Of a DNA stretch of 64,000 nt, positions 3,074 to 56,347 are shown one piece after another. The stretch's first letter is position 1. Every line of letters starts with the position of its first letter. The stretch covers positions 21,547,901 through 21,611,900 of the forward strand of contig OZ038527.1 of NCBI GenBank assembly GCA_964036665.1, written 5' to 3'. Source of the stretch: Gordius sp. MW1 (lineage: Eukaryota; Nematomorpha; Gordioida; Gordea; Gordiidae). The position numbers were made by a program, and so were the translations under genes. The notes beneath the pieces are model-generated. The model was given only the letters and a program-made list of their open reading frames with translations. It made no database searches and was not told where the DNA came from.

Positions 3074-3086
3074 TTTCTTTCCCCTT
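3074..3086 (-). other. Polypurine tract
   Basis: In element orientation AAGGGGAAAGAAA lies immediately upstream of the 3' LTR, the expected position and composition of the plus-strand primer for reverse transcription. The gag-pol stop codon TAA (3085-3087) overlaps its first bases. Confidence 0.85.
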
Positions 3087-6000
3087 AATCGATTCCGTAT
3101 CTTTGCATCGGGTATTTAATTCGGGTCGACCGTCGTGGTAGTGTAGGTGAAGGTAGTCCAACTACGTCAGGATCGATCGGCAAACGGGGCGGGGACGTAA
3201 GTGGTATCGTCGAAGATGTGGATGGTGGCGAGTTAAAAGGAAGGGTCGTAGATGGAAGAGTATTAATGGAGGGCGTCATAGGTGGTGTACGTGAAAAACT
3301 AGCTTGCTCCGTGCTGTAATCGTCAAATGGTGAATCATTTGCCAAGTCTGTAGAAGGAGAGGGGCAGGGCGTTGTCACCTGTGTAGGCAAGTCTTCTTCC
3401 ATGATTGTATCCGATCGTTTCCTTATGTGGTCGCCATGTCTTTTCCACATCATACCTTCTTCTGTTTCGATTACGTAAGAAACGGGACCAAGTATTTTAC
3501 GAACGACTCCCTTGCACCACAATTTGTCACTACTTGTAAAATCTCTCACCCAGACTTTGTCACCGATTAAAAATTTTCTTCTAATAAAATTATCTTCTTC
3601 AAGTTCCCCTACCATCATGTGTGGTTTTAAAAAACTAAACAAACTTAAGGGGTGAATTTTGATTAACAAATCTGCTGGGGTAAAACCAGTTGTAGGATGG
3701 ATAGTATTCCTGTAAGAAAACAAGAAATTAAATAATTTATCATTTTTAAAATTTTGCGACTTATATAGGAAATTTTTAAAGGTTCGAATAAAACGTTCGG
3801 CTTCTCCATTAGAACGAGGGTGGTAAGGACTTGAATAAATGTTTCGAATATTATTTTTTTTGCAATATCCCTTGAATTCAGCACTTGTAAATTGTGGACC
3901 ATTATCTGAAACAATGGAATTAGGTAGTCCGAAACGAGCAAATATCGATTCGAGGGCATTGATAGTGCACGATGCACTAATGCTGGTCATAGGGAATATC
4001 TCTGGCCATTTGGTATATGCATCGACCAAAATTAGATAATAATAACCGTGAATAGAACCACAAAAATCTAAATGTAGCCTAGACCAAGGTTTACCAGGGT
4101 TTGTCCATTTTTGGGGAGCTAATTCTGGTGTTCCAGAAAACCACTCTTGGCAATTTTTACAATTATTAACGTAATTTTGGATGTCCTTATCGATACCTGG
4201 ATACCATAAATGTTGACGGGCTAGAATCCTAGAGCGGGTCATACCAGGATGGCCTAAATGGAGCATATATAAAATATCTTTTCTTAATTTTTGTGGAATG
4301 ACCACCCTATATCCCCAGAAAAGGCATCCTTTTAGCGTTGTTAATTCTTTTTGGCGTTGATGGTACACGACTAGTTCCGATTCCACTTTTTTGGGCCAAC
4401 CGTGAAGTACGTAATTATATACTTGTCCTAGAACAGGATCTTGACGGGTATGTCTGGCCACATCTGCCGATGTAATTGGTAATTGCTTAAATGTTTCTTC
4501 GTAAATAGCACAAATATCTCCCTCTTGAGATATTGTTTCGTCCGGAACAGCTAACCTTGAGAGCATATCTGCACGAGCGTTTTCTTTGGTATTCTTATAT
4601 CTAATATTAAATTGGTACGGTGTTGTAAATAAAGCCCATCGTTGAAGTCGCGCCGATACAGCTTGAGGTACGTTTTTGGTTTGATTAAATATTGATAATA
4701 GTGGTTTGTGGTCTGTTACTAGAGTGAAGGTTTGGCCATAAATGTATTCTCGAAATTTTTGAAATGCAAATATAATGGCTAACGCTTCTTTTTCAATTTG
4801 GCTGTAATTTCTCTCCGCAGCGTTGAGTGTGCGCGAGGCAAAAGAAATGGGATGCTCGTACCCCTTAATTTCATGTGATAAAACGGCGCCGATACCTTCC
4901 GCTGAAGCATCGGTGGAGAGTAGCAATGGTAATTGAGGATTAAAATGAACTAAAACAGGAGCATTAATTATTTTTTTCTTTATTTTATTAATGGCATTTA
5001 TACAATCTTGTGTCCAATTCCATTTCACTGATTTTCTTAATAATTTATACAACGGTTGTGCTAGAGTCGAAAAATTTTGTATAAACTTAGCATAATAGGT
5101 AGCCATGCCTAAGAAAGATTGTAATTCTTTAATTGATGTAGGGTCAGGAGCATTTATAATTGCCTTAGTATTTTTGTTAGTTGTGTGAATTCCTTCCTCG
5201 TTTATTATATGTCCAAGATATTCAATTGATTTTTGTAAAAAATTACATTTTTCTCGTTTTAATTTTATATTAGCCTCATCCAATATTTTAAACACTATTT
5301 CGAGATTTTTATTGTGATCCTCAATTGTTTTCCCAGACACGATAATGTCGTCTAAATAACATACTACACCATTAATGTTCCTAAATAATGAGTCTATGAA
5401 GCGCTGAAATATCGCTGGGGCAGAAGCAATTCCGAATGGAAGTCGAGTATATTGAAAAAGTCCTCTGTGGGTATTAATTGTTAAAATATTTTGTGATTTT
5501 TCAGTAATTTTAATTTGATAATAAGCTTCCTTTAGGTCTAATATGGAGAAATATCTAAAACCTGCTAATTTAGAAAACAAGTCTTGGATTCGGGGAAGAG
5601 GGTATTTTTCAACAACTAGATTATTATTCAAATTTCGGAAATCTCCACAAATTCGTAATCCCCCATTTTTTTTAAGAACAGTAACAATGGGCGCTGCATA
5701 GTCGGCATATTTTACAGATTTCAAAACCCCTTCATTAACTAGTCGGTCTAACTCCTTATCCACTTTTTCTTTAATAAAATAAGGGATTGGTCTGGGCCGA
5801 AAAAATTTAGGAGAGGATTCGGGTTTAAGTTTAAGTGTTGTATAAAAATCAATAACTCCGGTGGATTTATTATCAAATAACGAAGAATATTTGTTAGTAA
5901 TATCATTCAAATTATTGTAACAATTAACCATATTGATTGAAGAGGGAGTGGTATCATCTTTAATCCATTTATGTGCCAGTTGAATTAGGATATGGGGAAA

Positions 6001-6987
6001 ATGTTGCAACCAATCGCGTCCTAATATGTTGTGGCCATGGCCTTCTGATACGATTAACGGCAATTTAAATCGTTTGCCATTTTCAGATACTGTCACCTCG
6101 GTTTTTCCTTTCGTTGGTATGGTTGTACCATTATAGCTCTTTAAGATAGTTTTGAGTGGAGAAACGTTCCGTACTACAATGTTTCCTCCATTCACCATTG
6201 TCACTGATGACCCTGTATCAATTTCAAAATTAACATCTAGATCATTTACCTTTAATGTATAAGTGGGAAATGACGAATATCCCTTCAAATAATTCACTTG
6301 ATGATGCGTAACACTGCATTCGCTCTTGCATATTTTTCCAATGTGTCCCTTTTTTTGACATTTAAAACAAACTGCAGTTCGAAATTTACACATGGCCCGA
6401 TTATGATTCCCCCCGCATGAATAACAATAATTTAAGGACCTGGGTTTTACCAAATGAATTGTTTCCGAATGATTCAATAATTGCGATTGTAGTTCTGCCC
6501 TTTCCATGGCGCGAGAGGTGTCCAGCGCAATTTGCCATGTCAAATTTTCTATGCCTAAAAGGCGTTCAACAATCTTTGTTTTCTTTAATCCAGCTACAAA
6601 CCTATCACGGAGGCTACTTTCAAGGTTCGATCCGAATTCGCAATGGATTGCCACCCCCTTTAATCTTGCTGTAAATGCATCGATGGTTTCATCATCCATT
6701 TGGGACAACTTATTAAATTTGTAGCGTTGTACGATTGGGTTTAATTTGGGAGAATAAAAGTTTTTTAGGGCTAAACATAATTCTTCAAAAGGAAGGTTTG
6801 CAGGGTCCTGGGGGGCAATAAGGTTTGTAAGTAATTCGAAATTTTCGGTACCTATAACGGATAGAAATAAGGATTTTTTATCGCAACCGATAACATTGTG
6901 AAAATGGTTGAATTGTGACAAGTATAAGTCAAAACTATCGGTAGGATTATATTGATGGAATTGTATATTGGAATTCGACCGCGCCAT
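3085..6987 (-). CDS. gag-pol: Gag-Pol polyprotein of Ty3/gypsy retrotransposon
   Basis: One uninterrupted 1300-residue frame. Gag-like region 1-180; two CCHC zinc knuckles at about 188-200 (CYSCGGNHNRAMC) and 207-220 (CFKCQKKGHIGKIC); aspartic protease with DTG at about 257-259; reverse transcriptase about 400-575 with YLDD at 544-547; RNase H from about 690 with TDAS and TDHKPL; integrase about 905-1110 with an H2C2 finger and DD35E residues (D in HLDFCG, D in SDNGPQ, E in SNGEAERF); then a GDKVWVRDF segment and a Pro/Ser/Thr-rich tail. Gag and Pol are in one frame, so no frameshift is needed. The ATG lies at the LTR edge and its TG is the start of the primer binding site. All catalytic motifs looked for are present. 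The protein would make the particle, copy the RNA and integrate the DNA. Confidence 0.95.
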   Translation of the reverse strand: MARSNSNIQFHQYNPTDSFDLYLSQFNHFHNVIGCDKKSLFLSVIGTENFELLTNLIAPQDPANLPFEELCLALKNFYSPKLNPIVQRYKFNKLSQMDDETIDAFTARLKGVAIHCEFGSNLESSLRDRFVAGLKKTKIVERLLGIENLTWQIALDTSRAMERAELQSQLLNHSETIHLVKPRSLNYCYSCGGNHNRAMCKFRTAVCFKCQKKGHIGKICKSECSVTHHQVNYLKGYSSFPTYTLKVNDLDVNFEIDTGSSVTMVNGGNIVVRNVSPLKTILKSYNGTTIPTKGKTEVTVSENGKRFKLPLIVSEGHGHNILGRDWLQHFPHILIQLAHKWIKDDTTPSSINMVNCYNNLNDITNKYSSLFDNKSTGVIDFYTTLKLKPESSPKFFRPRPIPYFIKEKVDKELDRLVNEGVLKSVKYADYAAPIVTVLKKNGGLRICGDFRNLNNNLVVEKYPLPRIQDLFSKLAGFRYFSILDLKEAYYQIKITEKSQNILTINTHRGLFQYTRLPFGIASAPAIFQRFIDSLFRNINGVVCYLDDIIVSGKTIEDHNKNLEIVFKILDEANIKLKREKCNFLQKSIEYLGHIINEEGIHTTNKNTKAIINAPDPTSIKELQSFLGMATYYAKFIQNFSTLAQPLYKLLRKSVKWNWTQDCINAINKIKKKIINAPVLVHFNPQLPLLLSTDASAEGIGAVLSHEIKGYEHPISFASRTLNAAERNYSQIEKEALAIIFAFQKFREYIYGQTFTLVTDHKPLLSIFNQTKNVPQAVSARLQRWALFTTPYQFNIRYKNTKENARADMLSRLAVPDETISQEGDICAIYEETFKQLPITSADVARHTRQDPVLGQVYNYVLHGWPKKVESELVVYHQRQKELTTLKGCLFWGYRVVIPQKLRKDILYMLHLGHPGMTRSRILARQHLWYPGIDKDIQNYVNNCKNCQEWFSGTPELAPQKWTNPGKPWSRLHLDFCGSIHGYYYLILVDAYTKWPEIFPMTSISASCTINALESIFARFGLPNSIVSDNGPQFTSAEFKGYCKKNNIRNIYSSPYHPRSNGEAERFIRTFKNFLYKSQNFKNDKLFNFLFSYRNTIHPTTGFTPADLLIKIHPLSLFSFLKPHMMVGELEEDNFIRRKFLIGDKVWVRDFTSSDKLWCKGVVRKILGPVSYVIETEEGMMWKRHGDHIRKRSDTIMEEDLPTQVTTPCPSPSTDLANDSPFDDYSTEQASFSRTPPMTPSINTLPSTTLPFNSPPSTSSTIPLTSPPRLPIDPDVVGLPSPTLPRRSTRIKYPMQRYGID
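6975..6986 (-). other. Primer binding site for tRNA-Ser(AGA)
   Basis: In element orientation TGGCGCGGTCGA follows the 5' LTR directly. It is complementary over 12 nt to the 3' end TCGACCGCG plus CCA of the tRNA-Ser(AGA) gene at 38565-38646. The same bases encode the start of Gag (Met-Ala-Arg-Ser), because the gag ATG begins one base before the site. Confidence 0.88.
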
Positions 6988-7292
6988 ATTTTATAGCGTA
7001 ATAAAATGCGTAAGAAAGGGAAAAAATCCAAGAATGCATTTATGCGATAATTTGGTAATATATAGGAAAAAGCGTGGGAATAATAATGTACTTAATTACA
7101 ATAATGAATGCGAACTCAAATCATGGTGAGAGTGTGGGAAAGTAACTAATGATATTATAACTAATGGGTGAGAGTGTGGGAGTATTAACTAAAAAGGAAA
7201 AGCACTAATGAGTTAATTTGAGTATGGGAAAAGGCTTAATTTGAGTATGGGAAAAGGCTTAATTTGAGTATGGGAAAAGGCGAGCTACAGCA
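6987..7292 (-). repeat. 5' LTR of the Ty3/gypsy element
   Basis: This copy matches 2768-3073 with no mismatch found by reading both copies. In element orientation it ends ...CGCTATAAAATA directly before the primer binding site. The same three ~23-bp U3 repeats are present at about 7216-7281. Flanked on the right by ATATA (7293-7297). Confidence 0.92.
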
Positions 7293-34809: not shown

Positions 34810-37446
34810 ATGCCGAAAATCCATAAGAGCACCAAGATTCATGTTTTTAAATTAGTGATGTTTTTTCTTTCCACCAGTTTGGCTATGGCGATTTGCGAAA
34901 AAAATAATCGCAAAATATATTGCGATTACGAAAATAACGTAGTTTTAGAATCCTTATTAGCAACGATAAACGCGTCGGGTGAAGTTGAGAAAGTAGTTTT
35001 GCAAAATATATTTGAATACAAAAATCAACCCTACCTTTTTTCCAAGTTTTGCAGCACCCTAACAACATTCGAACTTTACGAATGCAAGGAAACCTATCCC
35101 CTCTCCCTAAAATCTCTCGTATGTCCCGATCAAAGCTCAAACATTCGTGAAGTCACTATCAAAAACCATAAATTCAAAACGCTCCGAGAAAAAGAAATAG
35201 CCTCTATTAAAGGCTTGCTCAAGTTCAAGATGACATCCGGCTTGCTTGTTTCCATCGATAAATACGTCTTTTCGGGATCTAACTTGGTAGTTGTTGATTT
35301 GGGTGAAAATTATATAGAAAACGTCGCACCCTTCGCTTTTTCCAACATGAACAATTTGAGGAGCTTATCACTCAGGTTTAATTACATCGACACCTTGGAT
35401 GTAACCACTTTTTATTCCACCACAGGCCTCAGCATCCTCGATTTGAGTTACAATAGGCTAACTACCCTGCCTCGCAATTTGTTTAGATCTTTTAAGAGCC
35501 TTCGCGTGTTAGATCTTAAACACAATGTATTGAAAACCTTCAGTACGGACGTTTTCCCTCGTAGGGCTGCTAAAACATTGGAAACTCTTGACATCAGCGA
35601 AAATTCCTTGACTAGCTTGTCCTTGTATTGGCTGGATGCCATAAAATCCATCAACCTTATCTCAAATAAACTTCACACTGTGGATATGCATTATGAACTC
35701 AAGAGTGACATGGCCTTTTACATCAGCAACAACGATCTATCGTGCGATTGTTTTGGTATGGAATTTGTGCTATGGTTTAAAAAGCTGATCGATAAGACTA
35801 ACATAGATTCGTCCCCCTTCAGATTAGGAAATTTTATTGAGGCTAACAAAACGATTTGCAAATACCCGGAAGCCTTAGCTAATCAATTGCTGACTAATCA
35901 GCAACCTGATAGTACATGTTCCGCTACTATAACAGGGGATTGTCAATTTATGTACGGTAACAAGATACGGTGTTGGGACGTTTTTTTCAGCCAAGTTTCC
36001 CACTTCATAACCATGAATGTCTTGATCTTTCAAACTTACAAAATTTTGGAGCTCGATAATGTGATTCTGGTCAGTTTAGATGAGAATTTAGGAGTGTTCA
36101 TATGTACATTCAGGGAAATTACACTAAAACGCACTCAACTCAAGTCTATTAAAGATGGTGCCATGGATTGTGCTGTAAATTTAATTTACTTAGACTTGAC
36201 TAAGAACAGTTTGCCGGAATTGACTAAGCGCACCTTGCTTAAAAATATACGCCTCGAAAAATTGTTGGCAGGCTACAACAGGATTGAAAGGATCGAACCC
36301 GGAACTTTTGATAGTAGCCTTAATTTAACCGTTTTGGATCTTTCATACAATCGTCTTACTGCTCTTGATAATAATTTGTTTCAGTCCCTAATCAATCTTA
36401 ATATATTATACTTGAATAACAATTTTTTGCTCAATGTGGATACCGTTTGGATCCCTACACAGCTGATACTACTCAGACTAAATTATAATAATTTATTAAT
36501 TATCCCAAAAATTTTAATTACAAACTCTAACATAAGGGTAGATTTACAAGAAAATCCTTATCTCTGCAAAGATGAATTTATACATTCCTTACAAGCCAAT
36601 ATCCAAGCTAGATTAAGCAACGATACTTTAACGGACCCTGAGTCTGGATTAGGACAAGAAAGCGATATGCATACGGGTTGGCCTATGTTTTATGACGACT
36701 GTGAACTTAAATGTGACTATCTCCTTCCAAACTCCAAACAGGCTGCGGCGATAAATATACATAAATTCCGGAGCGAATCGGAAGAGTGCCAGAGAATTGA
36801 CTTGGAAATAAAGCAAGGTTTAACAACGTTGATCCCTTATGAAGCTCTATTAACGACAGTTATGGACACTAAAAATACCCCCGATTCTAACTTTATGACT
36901 AAAGATTCAAGTAAAAAGGCGTGGATCGTGCCTTATGAAGATTTAAGCTCAAAGGCGCCAAAGAGTCGAGACCAAAACGTAACGAATAAAATCATTTTGT
37001 TTACTCTGCTAGCGCTTCTATTGATAATTTTAGTCATACTTTCCGTATTTCTTTACCACCAATACAAGGGTAGTTTTAGTAGAGCTCACACATACGTATG
37101 GAAATATTTCGAATACCAACCCCAGTATCAATACGAACATTTTTACAATTTTGATGCCGATGTATTTAAACCGGGCCCCATCCCTACATCAATTTCGGAT
37201 ATAGCTAAGGAGACATTCGTTCCTCAGCCAAATGTGGAACGAACATCGACAGTTAACAAGGACTTAGATGTGAGGAAATCGCAATTTTCTTCTGAAAAAC
37301 TTATTTCACCCAATCCATCATCTCTTCAAAATAACACTAAAATTAATGTGCCAAGCGATCAAGCGTTAAACCTAGCAAGCAATAAAGGTGAGTACGAAGA
37401 AGGTTATGTCACAAACTCTGAATACAGCACAGCAAAAAGCAATTGA
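34810..37446 (+). CDS. Single-pass leucine-rich-repeat membrane protein, intronless
   Basis: An open frame of 878 residues without introns. Hydrophobic residues about 12-27 (FKLVMFFLSTSLAMA) form a signal peptide. Residues about 130-300 and 410-600 hold two blocks of leucine-rich repeats (LSILDLSYNRLTTLP, LTVLDLSYNRLTALD). The first ends in a Cys-rich cap with CDC at about 311-313. A membrane segment follows at about 728-750 (IILFTLLALLLIILVILSVF), then a tail of about 125 residues with several tyrosines (YEHFYNF, EEGYVTNSEYS). No TIR, kinase or Ig domain is seen, so it is not a Toll receptor. A cell-surface recognition or adhesion role is inferred from the architecture. An upstream ATG at 34801 is followed at once by a stop, which supports this start. 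It could not be assigned to a named family. Confidence 0.9.
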   Translation: MPKIHKSTKIHVFKLVMFFLSTSLAMAICEKNNRKIYCDYENNVVLESLLATINASGEVEKVVLQNIFEYKNQPYLFSKFCSTLTTFELYECKETYPLSLKSLVCPDQSSNIREVTIKNHKFKTLREKEIASIKGLLKFKMTSGLLVSIDKYVFSGSNLVVVDLGENYIENVAPFAFSNMNNLRSLSLRFNYIDTLDVTTFYSTTGLSILDLSYNRLTTLPRNLFRSFKSLRVLDLKHNVLKTFSTDVFPRRAAKTLETLDISENSLTSLSLYWLDAIKSINLISNKLHTVDMHYELKSDMAFYISNNDLSCDCFGMEFVLWFKKLIDKTNIDSSPFRLGNFIEANKTICKYPEALANQLLTNQQPDSTCSATITGDCQFMYGNKIRCWDVFFSQVSHFITMNVLIFQTYKILELDNVILVSLDENLGVFICTFREITLKRTQLKSIKDGAMDCAVNLIYLDLTKNSLPELTKRTLLKNIRLEKLLAGYNRIERIEPGTFDSSLNLTVLDLSYNRLTALDNNLFQSLINLNILYLNNNFLLNVDTVWIPTQLILLRLNYNNLLIIPKILITNSNIRVDLQENPYLCKDEFIHSLQANIQARLSNDTLTDPESGLGQESDMHTGWPMFYDDCELKCDYLLPNSKQAAAINIHKFRSESEECQRIDLEIKQGLTTLIPYEALLTTVMDTKNTPDSNFMTKDSSKKAWIVPYEDLSSKAPKSRDQNVTNKIILFTLLALLLIILVILSVFLYHQYKGSFSRAHTYVWKYFEYQPQYQYEHFYNFDADVFKPGPIPTSISDIAKETFVPQPNVERTSTVNKDLDVRKSQFSSEKLISPNPSSLQNNTKINVPSDQALNLASNKGEYEEGYVTNSEYSTAKSN

Positions 37447-42854: not shown

Positions 42855-44280
42855 AAAATTTGGCCAATGGTCACTTTTTCTCTATTGGTCAGTACCAACA
42901 GATACTCTATAAGTCAATGATAGCCAAAAAAAAACGGAAAAAAAAATTTTGATGCTCACTTTGGCCAATGGTCATTTTTTTCCATTGGTCAGCAGCCAGC
43001 ACACGGTAAAAGTGGATATAAATTCATAAGAGTAAAAAAAAACGAAAAAAAAAATTCCAAATCACATTTTGGCCAATGGTCATTTTTTTCCATTGGTCAG
43101 CAGCCAGGACACGGTAAAAGTAGATATAAATTCATAATAGTCAAAAAAAACGAAAAAAAAGTTTTCGAATCACATTTTGGCCAATGGTCATTTTATTCCA
43201 TTGGTCAGCAGCCAGCGGACGGCCGAAAAGTCATAATAGCAATGGTAGGAACAGGAACAATCATAATAGTCAAAAAAAAACGAAAAAAATAATTTCGATT
43301 CACATTTTGGCCAATGGTCATTTTTTCCATCGGTCAGGAGCCAGCGGACGACCAAAAAGTCATAATAGCAATGGTAGTAACAGGAACAATCATATTAGTC
43401 AAAAAAAAAAACGAAAAAATAAACTCGGATTCACATTTTGGCCAATGGTCATTTTTTTCATTGGTCAGCAGCCAACGGACGGCCAAAAAGTCTTATTATC
43501 AATGATAGTAACAAGAACAATCATAAGAGTCAAAAAAACTCCGGAATTCTAACCCAAAAACTAGTTAAATTGCATAGCAATTAGAAGTAAACAACTTTTA
43601 TTTATGTTTATTATATAACATTGGTCAGCAGCCAGCGGACGGCCAAAAAGTCATAATAGCAATGGTAGAAGCAGGAACAATCATAATAGTCAAAAAAAAC
43701 GAAAAAAATAATTTCGATTCACATTTTGGCCAATGGTCATTTTTTCCATCGGTCAGGAGCCAGCGGACGACCAAAAAGTCATAATAGCAATGGTAGTAAC
43801 AGGAACAATCATAATAGTCAAAAAAAAAAAACGAAAAAATAAACTCGGATTCACATTTTGGCCAATGGTCATTTTTTTCATTGGTCAGCAGCCAACGGAC
43901 GGCCAAAAAGTCTTATTATCAATGATAGTAACAAGAACAATCATAAGAGTCAAAAAAAACTCCGGAATTCTAACCCAAAAACTAGTTAAATTGCATAGCA
44001 ATTAGAAGTAAACAACTTTTATTTATGTTTATTATATAACATTGGTCAGCAGCCAGCGGACGGCCAAAAAGTCATAATAGCAATGGTAGAAACAGGAACA
44101 ATCATAATAGTCAAAAAAAACGAAAAAAATAATTTCGATTCACATTTTGGCCAATGGTCATTTTTTTCATTGGTCAGCAGCCAGCGGACGGCCAAAAATT
44201 CTTATTATCAATGATAGTAACAAGAACAATCATAAGAGTCAAAAAAACTCCGGGATTCTAACCCCAAAACTAGTTAAATT
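42855..44280. repeat. Second array of hairpin-forming repeat units, with higher-order repeats
   Basis: About eleven units with GGCCAATGGTCAT ... CCATTGGTCAGCAGCC occur here, as at 984-1670. They are interleaved with AATAGTCAAAAAAAACG spacers. From about 43563 a larger unit of about 422 bp (two hairpin units plus a palindrome plus GAAGTAAACAAC) is repeated in tandem, at 43563 and 43985. The conserved short open frames reflect the repeat and are not taken as genes. Confidence 0.85.
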
Positions 44281-52706: not shown

Positions 52707-55700
52707 ATGAAACAAATTTTATACCGCCAAACTCAAATTAAAATTCTTAGGACATTACTTAAAAATGTAAATACATTTTTTATGCTATAATTATATGAGC
52801 TAGGAAAAACTAACACAAAATATATTTATATGGGGTTGTAGTGGGACTGGGAAATATATCATTTCGAGGCGTATTTTGCTTCAATTGAAAGTAACATTAA
52901 TAAATTGTTTTTAAAAGCGTTAGATTATGCCCATTATTATTGATGTCAGAGCTTGTTATTCAGAATCTGCGTTTTGGGCTATTTTATGGGAAAAAATTGG
53001 AAACAAGACGTCATGTGAAAATGTGGGAACATTTATTAAACTTATTAGAGGAGCTCATATTGATGATACCTTTTACATTGTATGCTATAGTATTTTTAAT
53101 ATCAAATTCTTTAAGATATTAAATAACTGTGAAAACTTTAAAAGGATAGGTGTAAATATAATCAAACTTTTGACAGTGATTTCAAGAATGGTAAATAATC
53201 ACATTTTAATTTTATCATAATTTTAGAACTTAAACAAAATTGTATTTAAATTTGTTTTTATAAGTTGTCTTCCCCTTGAGAATTATGGAATACCATTGAA
53301 TTTTGAATGGCCTATTGTAGTGCATTTTCCTAATTACACACAAGGTAATTCATATGCATTGCATAAATATATTACCAAATAATATTATAAGTGCTACAAA
53401 TCTTAATTCTTAATAAATACATAAAATATAATGTCCCTTTAATATCTTTAATGATGAATTCTTTTTTATCAATAAATTTAATTAGATGAAGCTGAAAATA
53501 TAGTCAATCATATGTTTGGGGAAGATTTTAAAAGCTTGGATGATAGAATTGATCATGATTGTAATGCACTAGATACTAAAATTATAACTTCTGATTTGAA
53601 AGACACTAAGGAAAGAATTAGCTTAATTTTTAGTATATTCTATCCAATTTGTAATGATATAAGTATGCTATATGCTTTGGTAAGTTTATTTTTAAGAGGT
53701 CTTTAAATTTATTTAGAGTGAAAAATTAGTTAACCAATCTTTCACGACACAAGATGGTACAAATTATACATTTTTATTGTGTTTTCATTATATGAATTAC
53801 ATATATAGAAATTAGTGTAGATTTTACAAGTTTGTATTTCAAGAACTTACCAGAACGTATTGTGCAAATGTTAAATTCTAATAAACCCACACCCCAACTA
53901 AATGTTGGCAATGTACCCAAAGGTAATTTTATTAAAAAAAAAATTAATATCTTCCAGACAACATACAGTATACAAAGCTATCAACCACTTACAAATTTAT
54001 ATTACTTGCCGCATATTTAGCCTCTACTAACTCTGCACAAACAGATGATCACTTCTTTTCCAAAGTATTTAAATTAATTAGCTACATTTAACCAAATTTA
54101 GGAAAGGAATAAAAAGCAAAAATTTATCAAAGAAAAGGTTAGTGAACGATATATTAAAAGAGGGCTGTAAATTTTAGATCAACTTGAGATATTATACTAA
54201 GGACTGACCTCCCCTCAATTTTTTTGTGTTTTTCATTCTTTTGGTTAAAAAATTGTTTTAACCTAAATTGGTGATTTACATATACTAGTGATCAACATGT
54301 GAAGCTAAAAAATATTATTTAGATAATGTAACAAGGCAAATACAAAGTGTTTATAGCATTTAAACATCAGTTTCTAATCATTGAATCCAATTTTTGTAGT
54401 TATTGTATCATCATGGGTGATTTTTATTCAAAAACATGGTTACTTGGTTGGGTTAGAGCCTATTAGTTAAATAATTGCATTCATCCAGTTGACTTAATAG
54501 AATTTTAACTTAAATCATAGATTATTTAAATTGATTATAGGCACTGGATGTGATTAAAGGTCCTAAGGCATTTAATGTCAATCGATTGACATCAATTATC
54601 AAATCAATTAGTGAGGGCTGGTTACCCGAAAGATTTCCATTTTCTACACATTTTTACATCATGGTACTTAATCATATAAATATTCACATATTTATAATAT
54701 AAATTTTTGTTGTTAATAGGTTATTTTAGATTTAATTTTATAAGTGGTTTAAATGTATTGTATATTCCATTTTCACTGAATAGAAATTGTTAAACTTATG
54801 GCAATGTTTTTTGATATCTAATAGTCGGTATTTATTTTAACCCTTAATGATTAATAAATCAAAGATGAACTCATCTTGGTTTTTTCAGAAAATAGTCCAC
54901 TTGATTTATTAATGATTACTACTGCTATATTATTTATATGCAAATTTAATTTAACAAAGCTGTTTAGGTTTAATTTGCTATTTAACCTTAAAGGATAATT
55001 AGAATTTATATTTTTAATATTTTGTGTTTCCGAAATTGTGATGATTTTTACAAAAATAGGGACCGATTGGATTTGTTTGAAAATAATAGTTTTATTATAG
55101 GTTGGCCCATCCATCATTGAAAAATTTAAAATCAATTTGCAGGTTAAGGCCTTTATTTGACTTTTTTGAGCTTGCCTTGTTTTGCTATATCATTTATGAG
55201 TTTGTGTTAGTATTGTTAAAATGGCTGTGTTTTTTTGTCGACCTTTTGTTTTAGTCATAGACTAATAGACTGCTCCTTCCCTTTTAAAAAGTGTTCCACG
55301 TTTTGGCATCCATTTTGAAAAGTGAAACATGAATTTTGGCCAATTCATATGGTTTGACGAGTTTTTAAAATCGCTATAATGATTAAAATGGGTTGTTTTA
55401 TGTTATAAGATCAATGATTATTGTCCAATACAATCCATCGCTATACAAACTCTACTTCACTTATCGAAATGGCGGTCGTTTTTTGCAAAACTTTTGATGC
55501 GTGAATATATAAGAGATGAGCAGTCTATTAGTCTATGGTTTTAGTCGACTAAAAGGTCGACCAAACAAAACCTAGCCGTTTCACAACACTAGTTTTGGGT
55601 AAAAATGGAGCCAAATTCATTTGAACTAACTATATTAATCATTTTTCTTTTTTATTTTATTGTAAAATTCTATATACACATTTTGTTCCGAACTTTATTC

Positions 55701-56347
55701 AGGTAACAACCTTGGTGACATTTGGACTTTTGATCAAAGTTAAAGTGGCTAGTACCACACTCGACAACCAGAAATACAAATGCAACCTTACTTTAGACAC
55801 CATCAAACAAATTGCCAGGTTTGCCTTCATTTTAGTCTCAAACTAAATCTGATATGGTTTAGAAAAAGAACACTTCGGGTCAAAATATATAATGGCCAAA
55901 ATATATAAACCAATCAGAACCTTTAAAAATATAGCCGGTTAACGTGTATTTATACACCGTTTCAAATAGTTCCCAAAATGACTAATATTTGTGGTCCAAT
56001 ATATTAAAAATATGATTATTAAATCCTTAAATTCTGATGTTGCAAAATGTAATATTGGCAAAATGTAATATAGGTAAGGGTTAGATTTGGGAAATATATT
56101 TGATATTATGTCCATTATATATTATGGGTCCAAATCAAAATAATATTTGAGGGCTCTCAATAAATTTAAAGTTAAAGCTAAAGTGTAATTTATAATTCGT
56201 AATGAGGTGGCTCTAAAAACTTTGCGAATGAGCCTTAGATCTGAATAGACATGAGTTTTAATTGACTAATTTTATCTCTTTATTTTATAAATTATATATG
56301 ACAGGGACTTGGAATTCGATATATCGGCCTATCTTCGTGATTTTTAA
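52707..56347 (+). CDS. ORC5: Origin recognition complex subunit 5, 13 exons
   Basis: ORC5 is an AAA+-like subunit of the complex that marks replication origins and loads MCM helicase in the nucleus. Exons: 52707-52766, 52804-52890, 52924-53079, 53116-53190, 53227-53344, 53486-53679, 53717-53756, 53809-53922, 53958-54064, 54102-54137, 54541-54663, 55703-55818, 56305-56347. They sum to 422 residues plus stop, close to the 435 of the human protein. Recognisable in order: YRQTQIKILRTLL, Walker A FIWGCSGTGKY (31-38), DVRACYSES, Walker-B position FYIILNNCE (99-107), VVHFPNYTQ, YKFILLAAYLASTNSAQTDD, KGPKAFNVNRL, NQKYKCNLTLDTIKQIAR and the end FDISAYLRDF. Seven introns are only 33-37 nt, and reading through them breaks the frame or, for one, adds 12 residues. 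The ATG is preceded by an in-frame stop at 52695. Exon 7 and its flanking introns are the least certain part. Confidence 0.92.
55248..55545. mobile_element. hAT-type MITE in ORC5 intron 11
   Basis: The element spans 55256-55537, 282 bp. Both ends carry CATAGACTAATAGACTGCTC as a perfect 20-bp terminal inverted repeat. It is flanked by GTTTTAGT on both sides (55248-55255 and 55538-55545), a perfect 8-bp target duplication typical of hAT. No transposase is encoded. It inserted into an older repeat whose words (GTCGACC, AACAAAACC) also occur at 19.4-19.5 kb. Confidence 0.92.

Follow-up and report, generated by a model that had tools for sequence, protein, structure and literature searches.

Ultrashort introns towards the 5' ends of ORC5 and chaperonin genes in a hairworm genome

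The gene for ORC5 in a hairworm genome is interrupted by a series of introns only about 35 nt long. In all likelihood these are ordinary GT-AG spliceosomal introns, and they form part of a separate microintron class, for the most part 33-47 nt long, that is found in some gene families only, stands in adjacent runs towards the 5' end of a gene, and is accompanied by long introns towards the 3' end. Judging from sequence, such microintrons would be spliced in vivo. The evidence for the class comes from ORC5, from the chaperonins, and from a survey of further gene families.

The ORC5 gene

The window, which is the whole stretch of DNA under analysis, is 64,000 nt long and contains the gene listed below (window positions, strand in brackets). 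A guide is the human or fly ORC5 protein along which the DNA was aligned.

52707..56347 (+), ORC5 gene, start to stop codon: 13 exons, 12 introns, 422 aa
52767..52803 (+), ultrashort intron 1, 37 nt, phase 0: GT-AG; exact with human guide; retention gives 46 extra stops
52891..52923 (+), ultrashort intron 2, 33 nt, phase 0: GT-AG; exact with human and fly guides; retention gives 2 in-frame stops
53080..53115 (+), ultrashort intron 3, 36 nt, phase 0: GT-AG; exact with human and fly guides; if retained, the frame stays open
53191..53226 (+), short intron 4, 36 nt as first read, phase 0: GT-AG; both guides favour a donor at 53176, giving 51 nt
53345..53485 (+), intron 5, 141 nt, phase 1: from joined reading frame and guided alignments
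53680..53716 (+), ultrashort intron 6, 37 nt, phase 0: GT-AG; exact with fly guide, not with human guide
53757..53808 (+), short intron 7, 52 nt, phase 1: absent from the first reading; edges uncertain, the fly guide favouring 53779-53830, also 52 nt
53923..53957 (+), ultrashort intron 8, 35 nt, phase 1: GT-AG; exact with human and fly guides
54065..54101 (+), ultrashort intron 9, 37 nt, phase 0: GT-AG; exact with human and fly guides
54138..54540 (+), intron 10, 403 nt, phase 0: from joined reading frame and guided alignments
54664..55702 (+), intron 11, 1039 nt, phase 0: from joined reading frame and guided alignments
55819..56304 (+), intron 12, 486 nt, phase 2: from joined reading frame and guided alignments

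With these 12 introns taken out, seven of them named in an earlier sequence-only reading and five more, there is left a 422-residue ORC5 frame (52707-56347) with a single terminal stop. Residues 4-422 of the joined product align with residues 8-434 of the 435 in human ORC5 (E 7e-29), a homology to solved ORC5 chains that runs the full length. The match to fly ORC5 has an E of 5e-23, and the Pfam family ORC5_C (PF14630) is matched from position 1 to 155 of its 155 (E 6e-26). The earlier reading was right about the 422 residues, given that the five further introns are removed as well, and right that its seven intervals all run from GT to AG, with lengths of 37, 33, 36, 36, 37, 35, and 37 nt. The 3' end of the gene holds three long introns, of 403, 1039, and 486 nt.

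The exact edges are another matter, and here the claim stands for six of the seven. The alignments were made by a spliced aligner written for the purpose, which charges a fixed price per intron regardless of length, has a floor of 18 nt, and grants a small bonus for donor consensus. The human guide recovers five of the seven introns exactly (those starting at 52767, 52891, 53080, 53923, and 54065), and so does the fly guide (52891, 53080, 53680, 53923, and 54065). Intron 1 is not recoverable with the latter, because the fly-guided alignment begins at 52804. At least one of the two guides is exact in six cases, and the exception is intron 4, which both place at 53176-53226 (51 nt), the two versions scoring 337/283 and 329/283 (human/fly guide). 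The protein is divergent across 53486-53922, where the cuts made by the human guide differ (42 and 146 nt) and the fly guide puts introns at 53680-53716 and 53779-53830. When introns are priced lower, the fly guide calls extra ones between 54142 and 55702.

It had also been claimed that the frame is broken unless the introns are removed. When each of the seven is retained singly, four shift the frame and two introduce two stops each. Only 53080-53115 departs from the claim, since its retention gives no stop and keeps the frame. Alignment favours its removal all the same (329/283, against 308/270 when retained, human/fly).

Might indels in the assembly, or the decay of an ORC5 copy, merely mimic introns, the real gene being continuous or lying elsewhere? 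The open frame left by retention of intron 3 fits such an account, and so does the divergence of ORC5, together with the fact that, of 60 mock dinucleotide pairs scored there with no consensus bonus, at least 6 fit better than GT-AG. ORC5 alone therefore establishes the gene, not each splice site. The gene itself stands well above background, its guided score without the bonus being 216, as against at most 72 in 40 random stretches. Indels or decay sit badly with a full-length product that has one stop and matches human ORC5 as closely as it does, with the single occurrence of this DNA in the genome (212 Mb, 12 contigs), and with the presence of the same kind of stretches in conserved chaperonin genes. 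The account is scarcely credible, and the evidence supports the earlier prediction that ORC5 contains genuine ultrashort spliceosomal introns.

Chaperonin genes

The shortness had been described as concentrated in one gene. It is not, for chaperonin, proteasome, and U2AF2 genes carry the same class of intron. An exon-by-exon search of the genome for the chaperonin family (CCT/HSP60) gave 65 exon hits and nine multi-exon loci, and the gaps between neighbouring exons put 10 of 38 estimated intron lengths at 35-47 nt. Of these nine loci, seven were read and aligned to hand-typed human guide proteins; the four longest alignments have 386/520, 361/517, 346/484, and 308/478 residues identical. Together the seven contain 59 introns, 32 of them 34-47 nt long, and the next in length are 57, 67, and 71 nt. 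Locus by locus, the short ones make up 5/10, 7/10, 3/10, 5/13, 4/5, 3/5, and 5/6. Since the four near-complete CCT loci were picked for compactness and two other loci are 5' parts only, the fraction 32/59 overstates the share of short introns. The separate length mode near 37 nt is found in the chaperonins, in a small sample from that family alone, with a bias towards compact genes and 5' parts.

The aligner admits GT-AG only, which makes all 59 of these introns GT-AG by construction. The terminal dinucleotides were therefore tested separately over all 256 pairs, with no consensus bonus. GT-AG ranks first of the 256 both in the 5' 1.7 kb of CCT4 (1099, with 1003 for the runner-up) and in the 5' 1.5 kb of CCT5 (1169, with 1140 for the runner-up).

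The distribution of lengths bears on a second explanation, that the introns are real but became short through neutral deletion bias in a genome rich in AT, without forming a class apart or needing a mechanism of their own. Such a bias alone does not predict that 59 introns should leave the range from 47 to 57 nt empty, as they do (ORC5 has one intron of 52 nt inside that range and possibly another of 51). Nor does it predict where in the gene the short introns lie.

Position within the gene

In ORC5 and the four CCT genes, introns become longer from 5' to 3'. The Spearman correlation between intron rank and length is 0.67-0.73 in each, with a mean of 0.705 that was reached in 0 of 5000 permutations. 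Introns of at most 52 nt account for 21/27 in the first halves of the five genes and 6/27 in the second halves. The result is nearly the same with ORC5 intron 4 taken as 51 nt (mean 0.700, 0/5000 permutations) or with ORC5 left out (mean 0.711, 0/5000 permutations; short introns 16/21 in first halves and 3/21 in second). Short introns also keep company with each other: 19 adjacent pairs are observed where 13.0 are expected, a number reached by 5 of 5000 shuffles. The preference for the 5' end and the adjacency that mark flatworm microintrons are both found in these five genes, and 5' clustering beyond permutation is what deletion bias by itself leaves unpredicted.

Polarity could have a different source. 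Should the short introns be a mark of spliced leader acceptors or of genes in operons, or of the 5' ends of such genes, their position would follow from trans-splicing. There is a precedent of sorts, in that one fluke known to have microintrons trans-splices numerous housekeeping genes as well (PMC7716572). Within the 64-kb window, Rfam finds a tRNA and nothing else at the gathering score. I consider trans-splicing an improbable source of the pattern.

Other gene families

Further families were surveyed through tables of exon hits, with 65 exon rows for chaperonin, 90 for myosin, 29 for proteasome, 33 for MCM, 16 for MCM OB, and 75 for kinesin. Lengths were estimated from neighbouring pairs, those with a profile gap of more than 12 positions being dropped, and the six U2AF2 gaps being exempt from this filter. 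Only for proteasome, MCM, kinesin, MCM OB, and U2AF2 did the count take in introns read through inside single hits. The short-looking pairs lost to the filter were estimated at 35 and 53 nt in the chaperonins, 43, 52, and 58 nt in myosin, and -22 and 58 nt in MCM OB.

In the proteasome genes, 3 of 8 estimates fall at 34-50 nt, and three more hits read through 33-39 extra nt. U2AF2 has gaps of 41 and 49 nt among its 6, and towards its 5' end hits run through another 72 and 39 nt. Kinesin motors yield 3 estimates of at most 56 nt out of 48, with nine hits reading through 24-99 nt, and the MCM domain yields 1 of 23 in the same range. The MCM OB domain has 0 of 5, its two dropped pairs and two read-through hits leaving room for some. 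Among the 40 interpretable estimates of 42 in myosin heads (-4 and 19 being uninterpretable) there is no short intron, a zero that is soft because of the three dropped pairs estimated at 43, 52, and 58 nt. Kinesin and MCM domains, and probably myosin domains, rarely carry short introns. The class, so far as exon tables can tell, is widespread yet selective and far from universal.

It had been asked whether intron lengths over the genome at large have a second mode near 36 nt. The chaperonin genes show one, with lengths of 34-47 nt and a gap to 57, and the scarcity of such introns in the kinesin and MCM domains surveyed limits it. Over 264 kb, made up of the window and 20 random stretches of 10 kb, GT..AG pairs with open frame were counted by length, and no surplus appeared at 36 nt. 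That scan is crude, its background too high, and it is weak where genes are sparse.

Anatomy of the short introns

For comparison of signals, 40 short introns (32 from chaperonins and 8 from ORC5, with intron 4 as 36 nt) were set against 31 longer ones. The short introns are very low in G+C, 14.5% in their interiors, as against 27.7% in the longer introns and 38.2% in internal chaperonin exons. The acceptor is TAG in 32/40.

A pyrimidine run reaches 8 in 3/40 short and 3/31 long introns, and the longest runs have medians of 4.5 (short) and 4.0 (long; p 0.92). Because long introns are equally poor in tracts, the weak pyrimidine tract does not distinguish the short ones. G at +5 is rarer in short introns (5/40, versus 11/31 in long; p 0.043), as is C at -3 (2/40 versus 8/31; p 0.017), both p values being uncorrected for several tests. 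No branch-point motif rises above shuffles in the 40 short introns, and their complementarity to U2 is reached by 912 of 1000 shuffles. Adenine peaks at -11, in 24/40, a peak that is as high in 204 of 2000 shuffles.

This small difference in splice signals, and the want of a special motif, are the points in favour of deletion bias. Set beside the length gap and the 5' clustering, they make it an explanation to be taken seriously, though I think it unlikely to be the right one.

Comparison with known systems

Among known intron classes, the nearest to this one are the microintrons of flatworms. In Opisthorchis felineus, introns peak at 37 nt, prefer the 5' end, cluster, have lost the pyrimidine tract, and show no special motif, and intron definition was suggested for them (PMC6530080). 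The same source reports microintron fractions, of varying length, in O. viverrini, Clonorchis sinensis, Schistosoma mansoni, Echinococcus multilocularis, and Macrostomum lignano. The hairworm introns resemble those described there in their size of about 37 nt, their adjacent runs, their 5' placement, their poor tract, and their lack of a special motif. The sequence-only reading placed the ORC5 introns near the lower limit for most animals, which is fair, but with a 37-nt peak already in print for a flatworm (PMC6530080), their size is not unprecedented.

The differences are threefold. Hairworms belong to a different superphylum, presumably Ecdysozoa. As described in PMC6530080, the splice sites of O. 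felineus microintrons are nearer to consensus than those of other introns, whereas in the hairworm +5 G and -3 C are rarer in the short ones. The flatworm tract is also given there as poorer in microintrons than in other introns, whereas in the hairworm the longer introns are without a tract too. Another likeness is to the ciliate Paramecium, cited in the same source (PMC6530080), whose introns are 33-35 nt long but fall into several narrow size classes. The hairworm has one class, beside long introns, and 5' polarity. The ultrashort 5' pattern has so far been described in flatworms, and the open-access literature searched contained no report of microintrons in hairworms.

A possible mechanism

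I propose that a microintron would be recognised as a single unit, by intron definition, with U1 on the donor and U2 perhaps only a few nucleotides off. Recognition might be helped by the contrast of an AT-rich intron with GC-richer exons, and would then do without a true pyrimidine tract. By analogy with human short introns, SPF45/RBM17 instead of U2AF may hold SF3B1.

Those parts of a U2 spliceosome that were looked for are present. U2 snRNA has 32 matches in the genome, a U2AF2 gene is present, and three loci carry an SPF45-like UHM domain (contig and position):

C8:35519218-35523604, SPF45/RBM17-like UHM domain locus: domain matched
C7:15401163-15418127, SPF45/RBM17-like UHM domain locus: match confined to the final portion of the domain
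C6:584639-587310, SPF45/RBM17-like UHM domain locus: domain matched

Their best pieces are 67, 65, and 67% identical. Two of the three have a G-patch upstream on the contig that carries them, at a distance of 2.3 kb in one case and 16.7 kb in the other, and for the third no G-patch was found anywhere on its contig. Human has one SPF45/RBM17 gene.

In human cells SPF45/RBM17 replaces U2AF on short introns (PMC8363638). The likeness to the hairworm lies in the shortness of the introns, in their truncated pyrimidine tract, and in the presence of U2, U2AF2, and SPF45-like genes. The human model intron is 56 nt long, in a class below about 100 nt, with 43- and 49-nt introns named there as atypical (PMC8363638). 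The hairworm genome has three SPF45-like loci, and its use of SPF45 in splicing is putative. It is conjecture that SPF45 acts on the hairworm microintrons and that the additional loci are working genes.

One may go further and suppose that hairworms, independently of flatworms, evolved 5'-anchored microintrons together with an enlarged SPF45 set as a dedicated recognition factor, and that microintrons, being under the minimum of many gene finders, may explain part of the many universal animal genes reported missing from hairworms. I regard this as a long shot.

The source of the genome and the surroundings of ORC5

Contig 12 is mitochondrial, with cox1 found by family search. At sites which I take to be conserved positions, cox1 reads in the invertebrate mitochondrial code: AAA=K, AGA=S, ATA=M, TGA=W. 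The intron pattern had first suggested a flatworm, an origin that is ruled out by AAA as lysine. The contig contains many long perfect inverted repeats, with hairpin arms to 108 nt, some of them within protein frames read as atp6, nad1, and nad5 (identified by reading, cox1 alone by family search). For hairworm mitochondria, long perfect inverted repeats are described within coding genes, with shared sites in atp6, in nad1, and at two places in nad5, and the most conspicuous case outside hairworms is given as a gastrotrich, with repeats to 60 bp (PMC6649704). The contig points most likely to Nematomorpha. It also has a tandem repeat ahead of cox1 and putative nad4 and nad5 frames split into overlapping pieces. 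A tRNA scan of its first 9,999 bases, at a bacterial setting, found none.

Nuclear copies of cox1 lie at C8:2829490-2830827, C4:356383-379815, and C4:1458719-1486890, one of which scores nearly like the mitochondrial gene. Those on C4 include pairs of equal score that face opposite ways, which is the look of a large inverted duplication or of an artefact of assembly.

About 30 kb to the left of the window is a myosin gene (C1:21516873-21518826) in which profile parts 86-129 are hit three times and 120-153 twice. The repeated hits resemble mutually exclusive exons, such as insect muscle myosin has. Within the window, a 1301-codon open frame on the minus strand (3085-6990) has retrotransposon-like gag and pol motifs, by reading. 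An 878-codon open frame at 34810-37446, with leucine-rich repeats in its first 635 residues, sits between RhoGAP-bearing exons and ORC5. At 42924-44005, open frames on both strands translate into recurring protein text, which points to tandem repeats.

What the introns would mean

An annotation that disallows introns so short breaks or loses genes, a point made for flukes in PMC6530080. Four hairworm genomes are listed in PMC11603191, and the gene sets of three species, small ones by its figures, comprise 11,114, 8,717, and 10,819 genes, with many universal orthologs missing. Part of that loss therefore merits a second look, and microintrons may conceivably lie behind it.

If RNA confirms the microintrons, then the same syndrome, of introns near 37 nt in runs at the 5' end, would exist in two distant worm lineages that have parasitic members. 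It could then be asked what drives introns of this kind to the 5' end of a gene, and what is the minimal sequence that an animal spliceosome needs.
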